This document shows positions 201 to 11,799 of a stretch of DNA of 11,799 nucleotides, one piece after another. A program made the translations under genes and the position numbers. The stretch's first letter is position 1. Every line of letters begins with the position of its first letter. The notes beneath the pieces were generated by a model. That model did not search any database. It was given only the letters and a program-made list of their open reading frames with translations, and had not been told where the DNA came from. The DNA comes from Moraxellaceae bacterium (GTDB lineage Bacteria > Pseudomonadota > Gammaproteobacteria > Pseudomonadales > Ketobacteraceae): the NCBI GenBank assembly GCA_002402125.1, contig NVVG01000127.1, positions 1-11,799 on the forward strand, written 5' to 3'.

Positions 201-1520
201 TCATGCTTTCCGCAGCTTTTCCTGAGGTTTCAGTACATAGATATTGTACGCGCAGGCGGTAAATAGGATCAACCAAAATAGAACCTCTGCCGTCATTCTG
301 TTCATAAAGGACATTCCGACCATATAAGTTAGCAGGCCCGCTTCTATAGATATTATCTTGAAGTAATCGTCAAAGTTATCGAGTGAAAACAACTGCTGCT
401 TGCATTTATTAGTTGCTCTAAAACACGAAAACAACATCGCCAGGAAGCAGAACAATCCCAGATAGCCTATTTCAGTTAAGGCTTGAAACCAGGTGGAATG
501 AACGCTCCTATATCTACTACCCCCTGTATGTACATCTACCGGAATGTAATCTGGTGCTTTCGCTTGAAATCCCTTATAACCCAATCCAAAAGGATAGTCT
601 TTAGCCATATCTATTGCCGCTATCCAAAAGTACAGACGGGTTGCACCAGACTCCTTTTCAGAAGGTTCATCAGTGCGAATTTCCGTAGTTGTTAGGGTTT
701 TAAGTCGATTAACTGCCGTTTCGTCAAGCAGAAGCAAAACACCACATAATCCCAATACCACGAGCAAAAGCGTATTTCTTTTTTGGTTTTTTCTTTGCAA
801 CTTAGAAAAGTACAAATTACCTAGGAAATACCCCCCCCCTACGAATGTTGCAAGAATCGCACCTCGACTATTAATTAGAACAAGCGCATTTGCAATTAGC
901 GCACCAGCCATCAGCATACCAAATCTGACGCTATTCTTTTTTGACACCCATAGATAATAGAGCGCAATAATTGCTGCAGGCGCTATTGCAACGGCAATAC
1001 CGTTAGATTCCGGTGAATCAATAGTACCAACCCCTTCAACCCGATCGCCGCTATTTCTGCCTGATTGATATGTCAGCAACCCAATGTATGCTGCGCCCGC
1101 TATATATGCATACAAGGAACCGTTGAACGTTTTGGTAGTGTCAATTACTTTGTAAGCAACGCAAATTATTACAACCAGCTTAATAAAATAAACTAAGGCC
1201 TGGCCATGCCGATCAGGAAAGACAGCATATAGGCCCGAGATAATAAAAAGACCGCATACCAAAAAAATCCATTTGAATTGTGGCACTTCAAAAAAACTGT
1301 TTTTATTAAACCTTGAAAAATTCGCAGCAAACATACCTAACATCAGCAACACAACAAAGAAGGAATAACTAATATCTGGGACAAGCTCTCCCCACCACCG
1401 CATTTGGGGGTGCATAAAATAAACAATTTGATACAACATAAATGCGGTCGCAGGATTTCCTGCTAGTGAATGGATAAATCCGCCGACATATACCGACAAA
1501 AAAATTAGAACGGTCAGCAT
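201..1520 (-). CDS. O-antigen ligase/polymerase-like membrane protein, exosortase A-associated
   Basis: This 439-residue polytopic inner-membrane protein has about ten to twelve hydrophobic segments and one large polar loop (about 270-345), the architecture of the Wzy/WaaL family (O-antigen ligase domain). The loop carries the WaaL signature H-S-x9-G-x-x-G: His341, Ser342, Gly352, Gly355. Upstream are an N-S-R-G motif (217-220) and an R-x3-W stretch leading to P-F-G-L-G-Y (310-315). In WaaL-type enzymes the loop His takes part in glycan transfer from undecaprenyl diphosphate. XrtA loci commonly carry a putative 'O-glycosylation ligase', and the N-terminal M-H-P-Q-M-R-W-W-G resembles that group. 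The substrate may be a lipid A-like acceptor, a protein or another glycan chain; the sequence does not decide. The ATG at 1520 has a weak GAGAAG-type ribosome site about 10 bases upstream. It is the last gene of the operon. Three consecutive GGG codons (Gly228-230) form a G9 run. Confidence 0.85.
   Translation of the reverse strand: MLTVLIFLSVYVGGFIHSLAGNPATAFMLYQIVYFMHPQMRWWGELVPDISYSFFVVLLMLGMFAANFSRFNKNSFFEVPQFKWIFLVCGLFIISGLYAVFPDRHGQALVYFIKLVVIICVAYKVIDTTKTFNGSLYAYIAGAAYIGLLTYQSGRNSGDRVEGVGTIDSPESNGIAVAIAPAAIIALYYLWVSKKNSVRFGMLMAGALIANALVLINSRGAILATFVGGGYFLGNLYFSKLQRKNQKRNTLLLVVLGLCGVLLLLDETAVNRLKTLTTTEIRTDEPSEKESGATRLYFWIAAIDMAKDYPFGLGYKGFQAKAPDYIPVDVHTGGSRYRSVHSTWFQALTEIGYLGLFCFLAMLFSCFRATNKCKQQLFSLDNFDDYFKIISIEAGLLTYMVGMSFMNRMTAEVLFWLILFTACAYNIYVLKPQEKLRKA
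831..839. repeat. C9/G9 homopolymer inside the ligase gene
   Basis: There are nine C on the plus strand, read as nine G on the coding strand. They form exactly three Gly codons (228-230, V-G-G-G-Y) in a membrane segment of the ligase-like protein. I noticed no comparable G/C run elsewhere in this AT-leaning window. Gain or loss of one base would shift the frame and remove the downstream catalytic loop with His341. It could be a slipped-strand contingency site or simply an error-prone spot for sequencing. Confidence 0.9.
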
Positions 1521-1580: not shown

Positions 1581-1638
1581 GCATTTCCCTAAATGCTAGG
1601 ACTCTGCCTGCAAAAGCAGACTGAGGCCTAGCATTTAG
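1581..1638 (-). promoter_or_regulatory. Long hairpin with a competing short hairpin in the leader of the ligase gene
   Basis: The arms CTAAATGCTAGG (1589-1600) and CCTAGCATTTAG (1627-1638) are a perfect 12-bp inverted repeat. An inner TCTGC/GCAGA pair (1603-1607 and 1615-1619) can extend the stem. A third copy of the core, GCATTT (1581-1586), can instead pair with AAATGC (1591-1596) around 4 bases. In the minus-strand transcript the middle arm can therefore pair with either neighbour, giving mutually exclusive hairpins, a layout seen in attenuators. The element starts 9 bases after the stop of the HzsA-related gene and ends about 60 bases before the ligase start. No U-run follows, so it is not a standard terminator. 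It could be an mRNA-stabilising or processing hairpin, or an operator. Its role is unknown. Confidence 0.6.
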
Positions 1639-1646
1639 AATTAGCT

Positions 1647-4625
1647 TTAAGGGTTGGAGCCTATTACTATATTTTTTGGGAATTTCGGTGGGCTTGGAGG
1701 TGCCGAAAAAATCACCTTGCGTTTGTCTACAGCCAAATTCCCAGCTAAATCTCTTACAGAAACAGTAACCAGGTATTCCGAATCGAATTCAATGTCTCCA
1801 GGTGCTGGTATATCTAAAACACCAGCACTGTTTACTTGATCAGGTTGCACCGTTATTTCTACTAGGGCACCCGGGACACCGCCATTTAGTTTTGCATAAT
1901 TAATTTCCAGCGTTGATAGATCTACCCCTGATTTTGCGTCTGCAAACCCAATACTCCAAGAATTAGTACTTTCACTGTAGCCTCGCTTGGGTCTAAAAAC
2001 ATTGATAACGGGAAGCTGGTTATCGTTGGTATAACCAAAGCCTGCTGGATCGGGGAAATCAATTGCCCCACCTAAATCGACCCATCGGGCAACCATTCTT
2101 TTTTCACTATCCGTTAATGTTAACGATGGGTGCGACTGAGGATAGTCTACATCTTCAACACGATCGCTATTGCTGCGGCCATCTAAACGCTGACCATAGG
2201 CAACCCAGACTAACAGGCTTTCTCTAGCTTGAGGTACTCGAATATATTTACTACGCTGGGGCAATGAGTACCTGCTACCGTCTGATTTCTTATTGTTAGT
2301 CAAAACACCCCAAGCATCATCGTTACCTTCACCATCTAAAATTAGCCCGCCATTATTCCCTCCTCCGGCATGGCAAGAGACACAATTAGCATTGAGAATA
2401 GGGAGAACATCTCTGTTAAATTCGACATCCAATGAGTGATTATCAGAAAAAGTTACGCCTGAGGAGGATAGAAGAGGTATACCTTTCGTTAAGTCCCACA
2501 TGCCGCCAGCAATTCTTAGATCTTTTTCAGCAACACCAGCAACCTTTCCTATGGGTGCCTGCAGTCCGGCTTGCGTCGTAGAAAAATCTAAAGGTTCTAT
2601 TGAATGCGCATGACAACCCCCACAATCAGTACGATTTTCACCTGATTTTAGTGCTCGCCAGGTTAGCTCACTCACAAGAGTCATACCGTTTTTATCCAGT
2701 GTCTGAATGAAAAACGGCGTTTCTGCTGGTATTTTTGCAGCCCAAGAGGTATCAGGGTTACCCTGGCCATCAATAACGTCCTTGTGTGTCAGTGGAAATT
2801 CTCCAATTATTTCCCAGCGCTCATTATGTAATGAACCATAGTGAGCAACAACATCATCCAACCTAACATCATTCAAATAGCGGGTTATAGGGTCCCATTC
2901 GGCTCTACCAACCCACTTACGAATTGGTTTTGTAAACGGTTTTGGAGGTGTCGCTACAATTCTTACGGCATATATATCGTCATTGGTAAATAGCCCCGCT
3001 TCCGCACCCTGAATTCTCCAACTACCATCATGGATTTCCCTAGAGGTACTTGGCTGGAATTTCCCTGGTCCATCAGATGGATCCATATTGTACATTGAAG
3101 AAGTCCCTACAATTCCAGCGGCCTCTCCTTCTTGCAGTCGATCATCAACTTCGTCAGCAATTGTTGGCAATAACTCGGGTTTTTGCTGGCCATAAACCTC
3201 CTGATAACTAACAACAGCTCTGGGCCAAATTTCATTGTAGGCTGGATTATTCTTTATCATTACTAATTTATTAGGATTATCTACCACCGAAGACGCTGCA
3301 TCTCGAATCATATAGATTCCCGATTTTAACGCTTCACATAGATTCTTTGAGGCGCAGGCTGCATCAAAATGGTTTACTGAACCTGTAGAATAAGCAACGA
3401 GCAAATCCCCTGACTTTGTTGCGGAGGGCATTGAATATTTCCCTGACAAGTTAGGTGCAGGCACATCTGAGGGCGTTGTATGAGGCGTTAAATTAGTTGT
3501 ACCCTTTCGATCAAACTCTCTATAACTAATCTTATAATTACTGCCAAAAGGTTGAGTCTCATCAATGGATTTTCGAAGGAAATCAGGGCCATCAGAGGAT
3601 ATCGGAAAACGCAACAACGCACCAAAACCATAATCAAAGGAAGGGTAATACCAACCAGACACAACCTGTTCGTCTGCAAGCTGTGTGACAAAGTGTTCTA
3701 AATTCTTATGGTGATCATGTGGTTCTGTAAACTGTTTTAAGTCTGTGCCATCTGGATTAACCGTAAACAACGAGGTCATCGAATACAGGAATTTATTCGC
3801 TGCATCTTGCCAAGTTGAGAAGATAATTCTACCGTCTTTTAACTGGAATGGATGCTGTACCATGTGTAATGAACCGGTCTCTAACCGGTGTAGATTCGCC
3901 AGCCCTGCTGTTGACATCGAACCGTTATGATCATCCATAACATACAACTGTTGCATGCTACCCCGTACTACCGCATTCGTATCTGGATCAAAAGCTGTTA
4001 GCCCTGCTCGATTAGAAGTGAACATGAGCCGACCATCTGCCAAGGGAATAGGGGCCATATCCCTGATTCCTCGCATACTTGCCTGATCATGAGCGCTGGT
4101 TGTATTTCCTGCATATTGCTGGCTTTCAAAACCATCATCAAATGTGAGTCGAATCGGTGTATAGGGTGTTCCCTTACTGAGATCAATTTTATAGATCCAA
4201 CTTGCACTTTCCTGTGTGCCGCTTTCAATAAAGCTGTAATAAACGATTCGGCCATCATAAGAAATGAAAGGGTCCATTACGCTGCATAACTCACAATCAA
4301 CTAGAATCACCTCTGAACCATTAGGCTTCAACAACATCAAATCTGCTCCCGCAGCGATGTCATAGGCGTGTTCGCCCTGGGGAATAGTTACATAGGGGCT
4401 ATTTTCTCCAACCGCAGGATAGCGTACATAAACAATATCGTAATCAACGCCAACATCACTTGGTATTGCCTGTGATGTTGATACCAGCAATCCTGAAAAG
4501 ATCACCGTTGCTAGCATGTGGCAAAGGGCTTGTTTCAAACTGCCTTTAACTCCTGACATTATTGACTTCTCGCTCCAAAAACTCATTCGACACCAAGTAT
4601 TTTGCATATTTACTAATATATTCAT
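1647..4625 (-). CDS. Exported dihaem c-type cytochrome with beta-propeller, HzsA-related protein
   Basis: The protein has 992 residues from the ATG at 4625. A hydrophobic export signal (about 33-53) ends in S-Q-A, predicting a periplasmic or secreted mature form. Residues about 115-470 contain repeated D-G-R-[IL]-x-[FY] strands (for example at 124, 198 and 264), typical of PD40/TolB-like beta-propeller blades. Two covalent haem motifs follow: C668-G-G-C671-H672 (bases 2610-2624) and C748-V-S-C751-H752 (bases 2370-2384). The second sits in D-V-L-P-I-L-x-x-N-C, as in planctomycete-type cytochrome c domains. An Ig-like beta domain (about 873-975) closes the protein. The order propeller then two haems matches the hydrazine synthase alpha subunit, and I recall such proteins being annotated 'HzsA-related'. 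True hydrazine synthesis is unlikely: no beta or gamma subunit genes are present. The mature part has exactly eight Cys: four for haem, plus C111/C114 and C424/C430. There is no PEP-CTERM tail. Substrate and role are unknown. It lies between manB and the ligase, probably co-transcribed. Confidence 0.8.
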   Translation of the reverse strand: MNILVNMQNTWCRMSFWSEKSIMSGVKGSLKQALCHMLATVIFSGLLVSTSQAIPSDVGVDYDIVYVRYPAVGENSPYVTIPQGEHAYDIAAGADLMLLKPNGSEVILVDCELCSVMDPFISYDGRIVYYSFIESGTQESASWIYKIDLSKGTPYTPIRLTFDDGFESQQYAGNTTSAHDQASMRGIRDMAPIPLADGRLMFTSNRAGLTAFDPDTNAVVRGSMQQLYVMDDHNGSMSTAGLANLHRLETGSLHMVQHPFQLKDGRIIFSTWQDAANKFLYSMTSLFTVNPDGTDLKQFTEPHDHHKNLEHFVTQLADEQVVSGWYYPSFDYGFGALLRFPISSDGPDFLRKSIDETQPFGSNYKISYREFDRKGTTNLTPHTTPSDVPAPNLSGKYSMPSATKSGDLLVAYSTGSVNHFDAACASKNLCEALKSGIYMIRDAASSVVDNPNKLVMIKNNPAYNEIWPRAVVSYQEVYGQQKPELLPTIADEVDDRLQEGEAAGIVGTSSMYNMDPSDGPGKFQPSTSREIHDGSWRIQGAEAGLFTNDDIYAVRIVATPPKPFTKPIRKWVGRAEWDPITRYLNDVRLDDVVAHYGSLHNERWEIIGEFPLTHKDVIDGQGNPDTSWAAKIPAETPFFIQTLDKNGMTLVSELTWRALKSGENRTDCGGCHAHSIEPLDFSTTQAGLQAPIGKVAGVAEKDLRIAGGMWDLTKGIPLLSSSGVTFSDNHSLDVEFNRDVLPILNANCVSCHAGGGNNGGLILDGEGNDDAWGVLTNNKKSDGSRYSLPQRSKYIRVPQARESLLVWVAYGQRLDGRSNSDRVEDVDYPQSHPSLTLTDSEKRMVARWVDLGGAIDFPDPAGFGYTNDNQLPVINVFRPKRGYSESTNSWSIGFADAKSGVDLSTLEINYAKLNGGVPGALVEITVQPDQVNSAGVLDIPAPGDIEFDSEYLVTVSVRDLAGNLAVDKRKVIFSAPPSPPKFPKNIVIGSNP

Positions 4626-4754: not shown

Positions 4755-6143
4755 TTAACTATTACCTCGGAGCAAAGCCAACAGTTCTGCGGTCTTTAGT
4801 TTCATGAGGGCAAAATTCCCTTTGGATTCAACGTTCAAGCGCACCACAGGCTCCGTGTTTGAGGAACGCAAACTGAACCGCCACTCACCTTCTGGACCGG
4901 CAAACGAAAGGCTTATTCCATCGGTATGGTCAATACTGACTGCCGATTCCTGATAAGCGATAAGAACCCGATCAATCGACGCTTTAGGGTCCTCTAACTT
5001 AGAGTTAATCTCCCCTGAGGATGGATAGGCCTCAATGCGTGCGGATACCATCTCTGAAAGTGAGGTTTTTTGTACACATAGCAGTTCTGAGACCAGTAAC
5101 CACGGGATCATGCCGCTATCACAATAGGCAAAATCTCTAAAATAATGATGAGCACTCATTTCACCGCCATATACGGCATCTTCTTTACGCATCCGCTCTT
5201 TGATGAAGGCGTGGCTGGTTTTGCATAGAATCGCCTCACCGCCTCCTGCTTCGACGATATCTATGGTATTCCAGGTTAAGCGTGGGTCATGGATGATTTT
5301 GGCGCCAGGATTTTTCTTTAAGAAGGCTTCCGCCAATAGACCTACTATGTAGTAGCCCTCTATGAAGTCGCCGCTTGCATCAAAAAGAAAACATCGGTCA
5401 AAATCACCATCCCAAGCGATACCCATATCTGCTCCATGTTCACGTACAGCATTGGCGGTGTCATCTCTGTTCTCTGGTAGCAGCGGATTGGGAATTCCAT
5501 TGGGAAATGTTGCATCTGGCTGATGATGGACTTTGATGAACTCTATTGGAACACCTTGTTTTTTGAAGCGTATTTCAATCTCATCGATTACGTGTCCGGC
5601 GGCACCATTACCGGAATTCACTACCAATTTTAACGGGGTGATATTGCTTGGTTGGATATAAGTAAGAAGGTGATCGACGTATTCGGTTAATGTTGATTGC
5701 TTGTTGTATTCGCCTCTTTGGGCTGGGTCGACTTCAGGGAAGTTATTTTCTTCCGCTAAACGCTGAATGTCATTTAGACCGGTATCACCTGAAATTGGTT
5801 TACTGTCTTCTCGCACCAATTTCATGCCATTGTAGTCCATTGGATTGTGCGATGCGGTAACTTCGATGCCACCGTCGGCCTTGAGGTATTTTGTGGCAAA
5901 ATAGATTTCTTCTGTACCTACCATGCCAATATCAATTACGTTGCTGCCGGCATCTTGCAGGCCTTTTGCCAGTGATTGTTTTAGGGATTCTGATGTTGCG
6001 CGCATGTCGCCACCCACTACCACCACTTTTGGCTTTAGGTATTCTCCGAAAGCTCGGCCGATACGATAGGCTATTTCATCATTTAGCTCGGTGCCTAGTT
6101 GCCCTCTTATATCGTAGGCTTTAAAACAGGTCAGTTTTTTCAT
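4755..6143 (-). CDS. manB: Phosphomannomutase (ManB/CpsG type)
   Basis: The enzyme interconverts mannose-6-phosphate and mannose-1-phosphate in the cytoplasm, the middle step of GDP-mannose supply. The 462 residues match the usual length of alpha-D-phosphohexomutases, and all four active-site loops are visible. The phosphoserine loop is T-A-S-H-N-P (96-101, Ser98). The metal loop is D-G-D-F-D-R (245-250). The sugar-binding loop is G-E-M-S-A-H-H (327-333). The C-terminal phosphate-binding loop is [10 protein letters not shown] (426-435). The F in the metal loop is common in the CpsG/ManB subgroup. The G-E-M-S sugar loop fits mannose/glucose mutases rather than GlmM. Some relatives (AlgC) also act on glucose phosphates, so dual activity cannot be excluded. 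The start overlaps the manC stop by 4 bases (ATGA, 6140-6143), implying coupled translation. Confidence 0.93.
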
Positions 6144-7579
6144 GATTTTGCTCGCCCGTAGATGTCTTCAAAACGCACAATATCATCCTCACCAAGATAA
6201 GAGCCTGACTGCACTTCAATTAATTCTAATGGCACCTTGCCGGGGTTTTCTAAGGAATGTTTTACCCCTAGTGGAATGTAGGTTGATTCATTTTCAGTAA
6301 CTAAAAAGGTCTTTTCGCCGTTGGTGACTTTTGCTGTACCTGAAACTACAACCCAATGTTCGGCACGATGATGGTGCATTTGCAGGCTGAGTTTGGCTCC
6401 GGGTTTAACGGTAATGCGTTTTACCTGGTAGCGATCTCCGCTATTAATGGAGTCGTATTTGCCCCAGGGGCGGTAGACTTCTCGGTGCAATTTATACTCG
6501 CTGCGGTCTTCCGCTTTGAGTTGTTCTACTATTTTTTTGACGTCTTGCACATGGCTCTTAGCAGCTACCAAAATAGCATCTTTGGTATCTACTACAATTA
6601 GATCATCCAGCCCTATCAGAGAAATTAGTCGCTCTTCTCCGTAGACCAGGCAGTTTTTGCTATCACGGGCAATCACATCTCCGCGGGTTACATTGCCATC
6701 TTTGTCTTTATCTCCAATCTCCCATAATGCGGTCCAGGAGCCGACATCACTCCAGCCGGCATCCATTGGTACGACAACGGCGCCATCGGTTTTTTCCATT
6801 ACGGCATAATCGATCGACTCGTCGGGGCATTGCTCAAACGCTTCTGCATCTAAACGCACAAAATCCATGTCTTGATTGGTGCTTTTAAGGGACTGCTCGC
6901 AAGCGGTTGCTATATCTGGGCGGAATTGACGTAATTCCTGCAAATAACGACTAGCACGGAACAAAAACATGCCGCTATTCCAGTAGTACTCTCCACTGTC
7001 CAAATAACCCTGGGCTGCGGTTGCATCGGGTTTTTCGACAAACTCTTTTACTTCAAAACCATCACTTACGCTGTTGCCCCGACGTATATAACCATAACCT
7101 GTGTGTGCTTCCGTTGGTACTATGCCAAAGGTCACTAGTTTACCTTGTTCCGCTAAGGGTATAGCGCGTTGCACTGCAGCGGTAAATGCGGCTTGGTCTC
7201 TTATGTCGTGATCGGCGGCTAATACCAACAAAATAGGATCATCATCCGCTTTGGGATTTGCGCTATTGAGTGTATTAGATAGCTGTGCGGCAATCGCGAT
7301 AGCTGGGGCGGTGTTTCTACCAACAGGCTCCAACACTATCGGGCCCATTTTATTGATGGCGCGTAACTGTTCAGCGACGATAAATCGGTGTTCTTCGTTG
7401 CAAATTGTGAGCGGCGGCATAATGTCTAACGATGACAGGCGCTGTACGGTTGTTTGCAGCATGGTTGATGCATCGGAAGCGCTGCCGGTTAATGCTAAAA
7501 ACTGTTTAGGGTGTAGTGATCGAGACAAAGGCCAAAGCCGACTACCAGAACCGCCCGCCATAATTACAGGTAAAATCAT
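6140..7579 (-). CDS. manC: Bifunctional mannose-1-phosphate guanylyltransferase / mannose-6-phosphate isomerase
   Basis: The 479-residue protein matches type II GMP-PMI enzymes (ManC/CpsB/AlgA/XanB). The N-terminal nucleotidyltransferase domain has the pyrophosphorylase signature [14 protein letters not shown] (7-20), P-K-Q-F (24-27) and the sugar-binding F-V-E-K-P-D (180-185). The C-terminal cupin (about 365-475) has the isomerase metal-site residues in [10 protein letters not shown] (400-409) and P-L-G-V-K-H (436-441). It therefore isomerises fructose-6-phosphate to mannose-6-phosphate and also joins mannose-1-phosphate to GTP, giving GDP-mannose. With ManB next to it the whole route is present. 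It overlaps the glycosyltransferase stop by ATGA (7576-7579) and manB by ATGA (6140-6143). The ribosome site is weak (a GGAAA-like run), consistent with reinitiation after the upstream gene. Confidence 0.95.
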
Positions 7580-9738: not shown

Positions 9739-11235
9739 CTAGTTAAAAACTGCCATCTTATGCAGTTGATGTGTATATTCATTAGCGTACTGAAGTAGCA
9801 ATGTTTTGTCGGATTCCAGATCTAATCCATAGGGTATTGAGATGGCTACTGCCACCCCTGCATCCCCTTTGCCTAGCAGTACATTCACTGCTTGCATTAG
9901 CTTGATCTGAATTCCTCTGCTTGATGCGTAGTTGGGTAAAAGATACCAGTGTAACACTAAGCGTTTATGGCCGCTGGTGGTGCCTATCTGTAATAATCTG
10001 GCATTAATCGGCTGCTCGATATCTTTAGCAGTTAGCGAGATTGTCGAGGCAGTGATATAGCGCCATGTCTTGATATCGAAAAAACGATTATTGCTAGAGA
10101 CCAGCTCTTTGTCTGGTTCACCGTCATTATACCCTGCTAAATAGTAATCAAACTTACGATCTACTCTGCCAAAATGTTCTGACGCAGGGTTAGTGAACTG
10201 TGGTTTCCACGAAACGCTGTCTAATTCCATAGTTTGACCGGGTTGCTTGGCCACATCAAAATGCACACTGCTGGTAACGTTTGATAGCCCTAACACCATT
10301 GCTGCGGTAAACACCAAAGGCAATATTGAGGCGAATGCAATGGGTGGCCAATGGGTGCTAGCCCAGTTTTTATGTAAAGAGATTGCCCCTGTGTTTGTGT
10401 GAGCGTGTGCATCCGGATCGGCACCGATTTTCGATGACAACACTAGGATCATCACTACAAACGCGAAAAAGCCCCAGCCATAGATAAGATGATCCGCAGC
10501 ACTGGCATATTTCATGTCGATTAAATGACCGACCATGATTGTTCCGTATGCTCTGAGCCCATTGGCTAGTATCGGTAATATTATTGCAAATAAAAGAAAT
10601 AGAATTCTTTTCCATATGGCCGTGTAACTGACATAGGCTATTACCGACCCCAATACCACGCAAGCTACAAAAAAACGTACGCCAGAGCAGGCTTCGGCAA
10701 CCTCAAATAACCCATCAGGGATGGTGATAAACAAACCGTCTCGATAAACAGCAACACCGGACCATTGCAGAAACTGTACCGACATATCGGCGGTTATTAC
10801 TTGAAACAGGGGGACCAACTCTCCCCCTAAAGGAATAGAGAAAACAACAAAACACAATGGAAACCATAGTATTTTGGCTATTTGGAACCCCAAGAACATG
10901 ACAACAGCGCAGGGTAACATACCGAATACTGCGGCGTGCTTGAATAACTCCACATCAGCGGCGTACCCTAATAACCATAACCCTTGCAGACCGAAAAACG
11001 GTACTAACATAATGATTGCCGGTTTGGGTTTGGCTTCTAATACCAAGTGTTTTCTTTCATAGGCAAAATATAGCGCTATTGGAATCACAAAGAAGCAGTG
11101 CATGTAGGTGTTGTCATTCATCCACACTGAGGCAACTGATATTAGCGTTTCATAAAAAACACCGAACCAAATAGCGCACCAGGCTAATAACAAAAATAGT
11201 GGAGGTTTAATCGCTGCCAATACCGCATTACTCAT
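9739..11235 (-). CDS. xrtA: Exosortase A with fused EpsI domain
   Basis: The 498-residue inner-membrane protein has about eight hydrophobic segments in its first 270 residues and a soluble C-terminal part. The exosortase active site is visible: Cys183 in V-A-E-A-C-S-G-V-R, Arg228 in A-N-G-L-R-A-Y and His249 in A-D-H-L-I-Y-G-W, the Cys/Arg/His set proposed for this transpeptidase-like family. Another hydrophobic segment (about 297-318) leads into an EpsI-type domain (about 320-498) with the expected G-Y-N-D-G-E, N-N-R-F-F and H-W-Y-L features. The length and fusion match XrtA rather than shorter exosortases. Exosortases recognise C-terminal PEP-CTERM tails and are thought to cut them during export to the matrix. 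It starts 3 bases after the preceding acyltransferase stop, so the two are co-transcribed. No PEP-CTERM substrate gene is in the window. Confidence 0.95.
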   Translation of the reverse strand: MSNAVLAAIKPPLFLLLAWCAIWFGVFYETLISVASVWMNDNTYMHCFFVIPIALYFAYERKHLVLEAKPKPAIIMLVPFFGLQGLWLLGYAADVELFKHAAVFGMLPCAVVMFLGFQIAKILWFPLCFVVFSIPLGGELVPLFQVITADMSVQFLQWSGVAVYRDGLFITIPDGLFEVAEACSGVRFFVACVVLGSVIAYVSYTAIWKRILFLLFAIILPILANGLRAYGTIMVGHLIDMKYASAADHLIYGWGFFAFVVMILVLSSKIGADPDAHAHTNTGAISLHKNWASTHWPPIAFASILPLVFTAAMVLGLSNVTSSVHFDVAKQPGQTMELDSVSWKPQFTNPASEHFGRVDRKFDYYLAGYNDGEPDKELVSSNNRFFDIKTWRYITASTISLTAKDIEQPINARLLQIGTTSGHKRLVLHWYLLPNYASSRGIQIKLMQAVNVLLGKGDAGVAVAISIPYGLDLESDKTLLLQYANEYTHQLHKMAVFN

Positions 11236-11238
11236 GGT

Positions 11239-11799
11239 TTATGATGTCCTTATTATCGATTGGTAACGTTGAAAAAAATGCTTTATGCCTCTTGCATGTT
11301 GTTCTATGCGTAGCTTTAATACAGGTCGTTGTAATGCACAGAGTACTAAACCGTCATTTTTATCGCCGAGGCTTTGCTTGTATTGGGCCTCTCCACCCAA
11401 AAAGTCGTAGCTATCTTTTCCATTTTCCATGTATTGCTTTATGCACAGGGCGTGAAAAACCAAACCTGGCTTGAGTTTATTTTCTGTACTTGGGGATATA
11501 CCGCTTAAATAGAAATATACCTTATTCTGATAGACGAAATTGTAGAGATAACCCAATGTTTCGCCCCCAACGCTGAGTTTATATAGCTCAACTATGCCAG
11601 AGTCAGAACCAGAGTCAAAACCACATTGTATTAATCGCTGGTGAAACTCAACGAAATATCTATTATTAAAACCGCTGTCTTTTCCCCAGCGTTGTTGATG
11701 AATAGGCCCTGTTGACTGAAAATATTGCAGGGCCTCTTCTATCGTTTCTGCTTTGTGCAATATCAGCTCGCCTTCTCGCTGATAATGATTCATTGAGCG
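11239..11799 (-). CDS. CelD/BcsL-type acyltransferase (GNAT_6, FemAB-related), C-terminal part, truncated by the window edge
   Basis: About 186 residues are visible. The frame stays open to base 11799, and the ATG at 11793 is probably internal: family members are roughly 330-400 residues, and this is their second half. Numbered from that ATG, the family signs are I-H-Q-Q-R-W (31-36), L-G-Y-L-Y-N-F-V-Y (80-88), Y-F-Y-L-S-G (93-98), L-K-P-G (107-110) and Y-D-F-L-G-G-x3-Y-K-x-S-L-G (129-143), the acyl-CoA/acceptor-binding core of the C-terminal GNAT-like domain. Members in exosortase loci sit directly before xrtA, as here. The likely role is acylation of a sugar or lipid-linked glycan intermediate in the cytoplasm. 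A FemAB-like aminoacyl transfer cannot be ruled out from this half. The stop is TAA, 3 bases before xrtA. Confidence 0.82.
   Translation of the reverse strand, partial: RSMNHYQREGELILHKAETIEEALQYFQSTGPIHQQRWGKDSGFNNRYFVEFHQRLIQCGFDSGSDSGIVELYKLSVGGETLGYLYNFVYQNKVYFYLSGISPSTENKLKPGLVFHALCIKQYMENGKDSYDFLGGEAQYKQSLGDKNDGLVLCALQRPVLKLRIEQHARGIKHFFQRYQSIIRTS
11247..11250 (-). promoter_or_regulatory. Ribosome binding site of exosortase A
   Basis: AGGA on the minus strand lies 11 bases before the ATG at 11235 and inside the last codons of the upstream acyltransferase. This supports the start used and close coupling of the two genes. Confidence 0.5.

Follow-up and report, generated by a model that had tools for sequence, protein, structure and literature searches.

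Closest Described Systems

HzsA, the alpha subunit of the hydrazine synthase of anammox bacteria, is known from the Kuenenia stuttgartiensis structure (PDB 5c2v), in which a propeller is followed by an HZS_alpha middle domain with haem I and a C-terminal domain with haem II. According to the available text of PMC12607021 and PMC12758564, His587 of the haem I motif binds zinc and Tyr591 is the iron ligand, His772 is the distal ligand of haem II, and the zinc ligand Cys303 is not universal even among anammox bacteria (PMC12758564). As far as the available text of PMC12758564 goes, HzsA-related (PF18582) homologues of clades I–III from non-anammox bacteria lack Tyr591, with a two-residue gap at its place; they are co-located with beta-gamma-like genes and occur in Planctomycetota, Desulfobacterota and few other groups, and those of clade I lack His772. 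Neither "Gammaproteobacteria" nor "exopolysaccharide" appears as a word anywhere in that paper's main text.

The second system of relevance is the XrtA/PEP-CTERM exopolysaccharide locus (EpsH system, PMC1569441), which, in the available part of the source, combines an exosortase with exopolysaccharide genes, as does the locus described here. The main text of PMC1569441 contains the words "cytochrome", "heme", "hydrazine" and "propeller" 0 times each. Among the best matches in the open-licence literature, a scope outside which most subscription journals lie, no published link between HzsA-like proteins and polysaccharide loci was found, and the best matches in the same literature included no non-anammox HzsA-type protein with a tested function. 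The HzsA fold and the XrtA loci had each been described before.

Organization of the Locus

The window, i.e., the whole stretch of 11,799 nucleotides analysed here (G000:C257:1-11799), belongs to a 13,111-base contig, and all genes of the locus are found on the same (-) strand. In the order of transcription, these code for a GNAT-domain protein (Acetyltransf_6, called FemAB-like; 11239..11799, truncated where the window ends, with a length of 375 aa on the contig), exosortase A with an EpsI domain (9739..11235), XrtA-system polysaccharide deacetylase TIGR03006 (8835..9674), XrtA-system glycosyltransferase TIGR03087 (7576..8838), mannose-1-phosphate guanylyltransferase/mannose-6-phosphate isomerase ManC (6140..7579), phosphomannomutase ManB/CpsG (4755..6143), the HzsA-fold exported dihaem protein (1647..4625), and an O-antigen-ligase-type (Wzy_C) glycan ligase (201..1520). 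Directly past the window, the contig has many scattered N bases (L003:11800-12250).

The XrtA exopolysaccharide setting proposed by an earlier, sequence-only reading of this DNA agrees with the database models, as exosortase A, the TIGR03006 deacetylase and the TIGR03087 glycosyltransferase all score above their cut-offs. The ligase falls short of the XrtA-associated model TIGR03097 (93.9 of 188.1 bits) and is above the cut-off for Wzy_C. The open reading frame of the HzsA-fold gene opens at TTG 4628, and the ATG at 4625, the start given by the same reading, is preceded by AGGAG 5 bases upstream.

Four-base overlaps join the deacetylase to the glycosyltransferase gene, the latter to manC, and manC to manB. 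The HzsA-fold gene is separated by 129 bp from manB and by 126 bp from the ligase gene, and the latter gap harbors a long, near-perfect hairpin (1589..1638, (-) strand; 50 bases) with no T run. The hairpin has a z value of -3.8, and the surrounding stretch of 101 bases is more stable than all of its 200 shuffled versions (0/200 as stable). It is absent from the terminator-like candidates of the window, and the Rfam search of the window returned 0 matches. Given these gaps and the hairpin, the HzsA-fold gene may or may not be co-transcribed with the rest of the locus.

Domain Structure of the HzsA-Fold Protein

Bioinformatics analysis revealed that the product of the HzsA-fold gene contains the HZS_alpha domain PF18582 (35.1 bits; gathering score, 26.6), and that HzsA is the top fold for its predicted structure, which has the three-domain HzsA arrangement overall by structural alignment. 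The resemblance to HzsA and the propeller, both proposed from the letters of the DNA, are thus borne out, and so are the two haem motifs and the export of the protein described below. MauG/CcP-type chains were absent from the fold-search rows shown, an absence that rules nothing out.

A probable signal region (4467..4559, (-) strand; about residues 24–54) was recognized by eye, and the AlphaFold model has a helix at residues 29–51, with low confidence ahead of it. Since a hydrophobic N-terminus is present in 112 of the 120 listed homologues as well, the N-terminus may be called export-like, and the protein is probably secreted or lipid-anchored; a lipobox-like match is found in 33/120 homologues, several of them doubtful. 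The TolB-like propeller domain (3102..4448, (-) strand) spans about residues 61–509, including excursions. The match to the TolB beta-propeller is confined to this part of the protein; to our knowledge, TolB has no haem domains.

Haem motif 1, CGGCH (2610..2624, (-) strand; residues 669–673), is followed by Ala and the invariant His675, and haem motif 2, CVSCH (2370..2384, (-) strand; residues 749–753), has His833 as the probable distal ligand. Two alignments were used, A1 (the window protein plus 34 homologues taken from the list of 120) and A2 (40 rows). Both haem motifs and His675 are invariant in 40/40 rows of A2, and His833 is His in 34/35 rows of A1 and 31/40 rows of A2. The surroundings of haem I are strongly conserved, including invariant His675, Trp657, and Glu and Asp residues. 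The C-terminal beta-rich domain (1707..2009, (-) strand; residues 874–974) consists of strands in the AlphaFold model, is Ig-like by eye only, and has no match in the Pfam search. A C-terminal PEP-CTERM signal was found on the protein neither by models nor by eye, and a role as an exosortase substrate was therefore rejected.

The window protein shares the three domains of HzsA, with 606 residues superposing on 5c2v at 16–21% identity in structural alignments, but has an extra C-terminal beta domain. In the comparison of residues, positions in the 5c2v chain are offset by 27 from the numbering of the papers, as inferred from the motif position. The distal ligand His772 of haem II aligns to His833. 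In contrast to HzsA, the Tyr ligand of haem I is missing and a His is found at +2 instead; Tyr591 aligns to Ile677, and this position is occupied by Ile, Val, Thr, Gly or Gln in 35/35 rows of A1. The absence of Tyr591 is common to the window protein and to the homologues described in the available text of PMC12758564, whereas the window protein keeps the distal His lacking from those of clade I and differs from all of them in its neighbors. Unlike hzsA, its gene lies among polysaccharide genes. Genes for beta or gamma subunits or a redox partner were found by the sequence-only reading to be missing, and none is present among the eight main ORFs of the window; the HzsA-fold protein itself weakly matches the gamma model (15.2 of 625 bits) at the haem motif. 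The score for the NCBIfam equivalog NF052339 is 57.4 bits against a cut-off of 800.

Homologues and Their Neighbors

The protein search yielded 202 passing homologues out of 7999 scored candidates, and the 120 listed share 43–69% identity with the window protein. For some of the matches listed, the NCBI or UniRef entry already bears the name "HzsA-related protein", and both haem motifs are present in 119 of the 120. Some relatives have further Pfam domains, namely the surface Ig-like domain PF16403, PF00801 or PF17803, the latter two of which we take to be PKD and cadherin-like domains, respectively. Scanning of contigs with two peptide patterns revealed 34 loci of relatives (0 relatives in an earlier scan). 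A plasmid or phage home of the gene has no support, as both collections gave 0 matches.

The genome of the window contains a second, lipoprotein-like HZS_alpha gene in a different cluster (G000:C185, L004:6117-16748), surrounded by genes for an SH3/outer-membrane barrel (OMP) protein, a redoxin, a DUF3570 protein and a LamG protein. Relatives in L041, L042 and L044 are flanked by genes of sizes and orientations similar to those in this cluster.

The scanned neighbors of close relatives include Wzy_C ligases, GT2 and GT4 glycosyltransferases, flippases, and AT3-SGNH and hexapeptide acyltransferases, some being without a Pfam match. The order of the adjoining genes varies between genomes, and the position between manB and the ligase gene, which the sequence-only reading had proposed to survey, is not conserved. 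The spacing is tight in some cases, with an overlap of 4 bp between the gene and the preceding one in G675 and a gap of 3 bp to the following one in G653. Neighbors in G596 and G696 code for a protein in which UDP-GlcNAc 2-epimerase is fused to UDP-sugar dehydrogenase, and those in G118 for a protein of the VanZ/heparinase II/III type and a sulfatase. Both G596 and G696 have their HzsA-fold genes in tandem pairs (L120:5955-13683 and L123:5435-13641), which lie about 18–25 kb away from the exosortase. In G237 (L084:2237-12082), the HzsA-fold gene is followed by two genes of the alginate lyase family with Ig domains. With the sulfatase, heparinase-type and alginate-lyase genes near remoter relatives, the tie widens from XrtA loci to polysaccharides generally.

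Other relatives are found outside glycan loci. Those of G003, G451 and G388 share 32–39% identity with the window protein and have unrelated scanned neighbors, which in G003 and G451 are not glycan-synthesis genes. The neighbors scanned in G359 code for a regulator, a GH108/peptidoglycan-binding protein, alanine dehydrogenase, a peptidase and one protein without a match, and for the Myxococcales and Sulfidibacter genes (45% identical) no glycan synthesis was found among the six neighbors scanned.

A transglutaminase-like protein of about 270 aa with hydrophobic ends (L110:6724-7533, L019:3917-4741, L014:12950-13750, L017:7883-8734 and L112:1439-2263) has invariant Cys, His and Asp in 5/5 copies, of which only that of L017 passes a Pfam cut-off (DUF553). 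Its gene adjoins the relatives in G653, G675, G686 and G490 and lies elsewhere in the G407 locus. Among the 395 genomes of one family, 28 have this gene, and wherever it and the exosortase are both listed on one contig, the two lie near each other. In 23 of these 28 carriers, there is no relative of the window clade or G407 type, and at least 15 of the 23 have the gene within 24 kb of an exosortase; it was found in 0/14 genomes of the family of the window. A role as an obligate partner was rejected because of these carriers without a relative and the absence from the window's family.

Placement near Exosortase Genes

For the survey of genomes, A1 was used as the profile at E ≤ 1e-20, a threshold that drops weaker matches of the single-protein search in G001, G008, G020, G025 and G035. 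Relatives were detected in 8/369 genomes of the class, 15/395 genomes of the family of G176, 5/22 genomes of one genus (with no new genome), and 2/15 genomes of the window's family. In total, 23 distinct genomes have relatives, 20 of them with an exosortase; none was found in G388, G233 and G451.

The exosortase lies no more than 28 kb from the gene in 10 of the 23 genomes (10 of the 20 that have an exosortase), its places in the 395-genome family being the best ones among the matches listed. The distances on the same contig are 0.8 kb in G407, 5.9 kb in the window, 6.4 kb in G176, 14.3 kb in G653, 18.4 kb in G696, 19.8 kb in G596, 21.5 kb in G118, 24.6 kb in G686, 26.8 kb in G490 and 27.6 kb in G725. 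BLAST with the window proteins identified an exosortase and a glycosyltransferase in all nine of these loci other than the window, and a deacetylase in each of the nine except for G118. In the other ten exosortase-bearing genomes, no exosortase is present within 30 kb. In nine of these (G675, G237, G101, G593, G716, G797, G750, G564 and G003), the two genes are on separate contigs, which leaves linkage undecided; the G675 contig is 6.6 kb long and carries glycosyltransferase genes, and those of G564 are 8.4 kb. In G359, the copies lie on one contig, >500 kb from its exosortases. The weaker relatives below the threshold in G001, G008 and G035 are on contigs other than that of the exosortase.

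At a chance of 1.5% each, the binomial P for 10/20 is ~1e-13, which overstates the case, as the figure assumes independent genomes and uniform placement and the placement of a control family was not surveyed alongside. In a tree of 36 rows (of the "quick" kind, with no bootstrap and the root not inferred), the 13 rows labelled as polysaccharide-locus need four changes, against a mean of 10.8 for shuffled labels (0/500 as low); such counts cannot separate gain from loss, some "other" rows are on short contigs, and the label of row G675 rests on glycan neighbors and not on a linked exosortase. These rows form the window clade (six rows), G407, G596/G696/G725, and G118. The G407 protein is 32% identical to that of the window and groups with G003 and G451 (SH-aLRT 98). 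The tree omits the partial locus L028, L029, L030, L032–L040, L042–L046, L007–L013, the second G237 copy, and the relatives in G101, G233, G593, G716, G750 and G797. With 10/20 exosortase-bearing genomes within 28 kb and four changes on the tree, chance is an unlikely explanation for the placement in polysaccharide loci.

The gene is rare in such loci. In the family of G176, 258 of 395 genomes have an exosortase, and 8/258 have a relative within 30 kb, among the matches listed. All four congeners (4/4) have the XrtA locus without the gene; G003 has a 39% identical relative on another contig, and G004 keeps the FemAB-XrtA-deacetylase-glycosyltransferase-ManC-ManB order (43–80% identity), with different genes after ManB, where the window has the HzsA-fold gene and the ligase. 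The absence from the congeners and the other genes in G004 indicate that the gene occupies an exchangeable part of the locus; thus, it is probably matched to a particular type of glycan rather than to the XrtA machinery shared by such loci. The sequence-only reading had regarded occasional and random adjacency to XrtA loci as the outcome contrary to it: presence is indeed only occasional, judging by these two counts, and random placement is not what was found.

Possible Function

The predicted fold, the two haem-attachment motifs, the export-like N-terminus and the recurrent locus placement, as established above, are best explained, albeit tentatively, by a c-type redox protein that has two haems and the HzsA fold, is exported, and forms an optional component of XrtA-type loci; it may act on the polysaccharide or on something held in it. 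The protein would be secreted or lipid-anchored; the reactive center would be haem I, at which His673 and invariant His675 stand where the tyrosine site is found in HzsA, and haem II, probably coordinated by His753/His833, would pass electrons. After export, the protein would oxidize (or reduce) a group on the polysaccharide of the locus or a small molecule held there. What the protein acts on, which way its electrons move and whether His673 and His675 serve as ligands are matters of inference. Against this reading stand the varying gene order beside the gene, the relatives outside glycan loci, the distant copies of G359, and the ten of 20 exosortase-bearing genomes without the gene within 30 kb, although linkage is undecided in nine of them. 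An envelope redox activity tied to a glycan had been suggested from the window alone, and the placement supports a link to polysaccharide loci; any reaction would be as conjectural here as it was there.

It is somewhat unlikely, though the next best account, that the protein is a cytochrome of the matrix, anchored in the extracellular polysaccharide by its propeller and C-terminal domain and leaving the glycan unaltered, with haems that act as carriers or a buffer of electrons or dispose of peroxide or NO. Polysaccharide-retained cytochromes of Geobacter provide an analogue. The exported or lipoprotein-like N-termini, the propeller with its added beta module, the extra Pfam domains of some relatives and the conserved distal His at the second haem would all suit such a protein, but it has two haems only, the window encodes no further cytochrome among its main ORFs, and the strongly conserved surroundings of haem I (His675, Trp657, Glu and Asp) suggest a reactive site rather than a wire.

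Less probable still is a passenger gene in the variable part of loci that are hot spots of exchange, without a functional tie to the glycan. The exchangeable position fits such a gene and a glycan-matched role equally; its rarity and varying neighbors favor a passenger, whereas the low number of changes on the tree, the tight spacing in G675 and G653, and the sulfatase, heparinase-type and alginate-lyase genes adjoining remoter relatives argue against it. A non-catalytic structural or glycan-binding protein, the haems of which stabilize the fold only, is very improbable: binding is a common role of propeller and beta modules, but both haem motifs are invariant. A true hydrazine synthase alpha subunit, serving nitrogen metabolism, was rejected despite the HzsA fold and two haem motifs, given the equivalog score, the haem-I ligand and the lack of beta and gamma partners among the eight main ORFs of the window; the protein does not make hydrazine.

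Implications

HzsA-type proteins outside anammox bacteria have no assigned job in the literature searched, and the repeated tie to polysaccharide loci offers a definite starting point for the search, also among cultured bacteria. More speculatively, and with considerable doubt, the HzsA fold may be an ancient exported haem-c scaffold that was recruited several times as a polysaccharide-modifying oxidoreductase, a haem-c glycan enzyme of a previously unknown kind, hydrazine synthase being one specialized offshoot in which CGGCH-x-H became a Tyr-ligated N–N-forming site. The tie could bring to light a redox step in the chemistry of extracellular polysaccharides and the type of ancestor from which hydrazine synthase arose.
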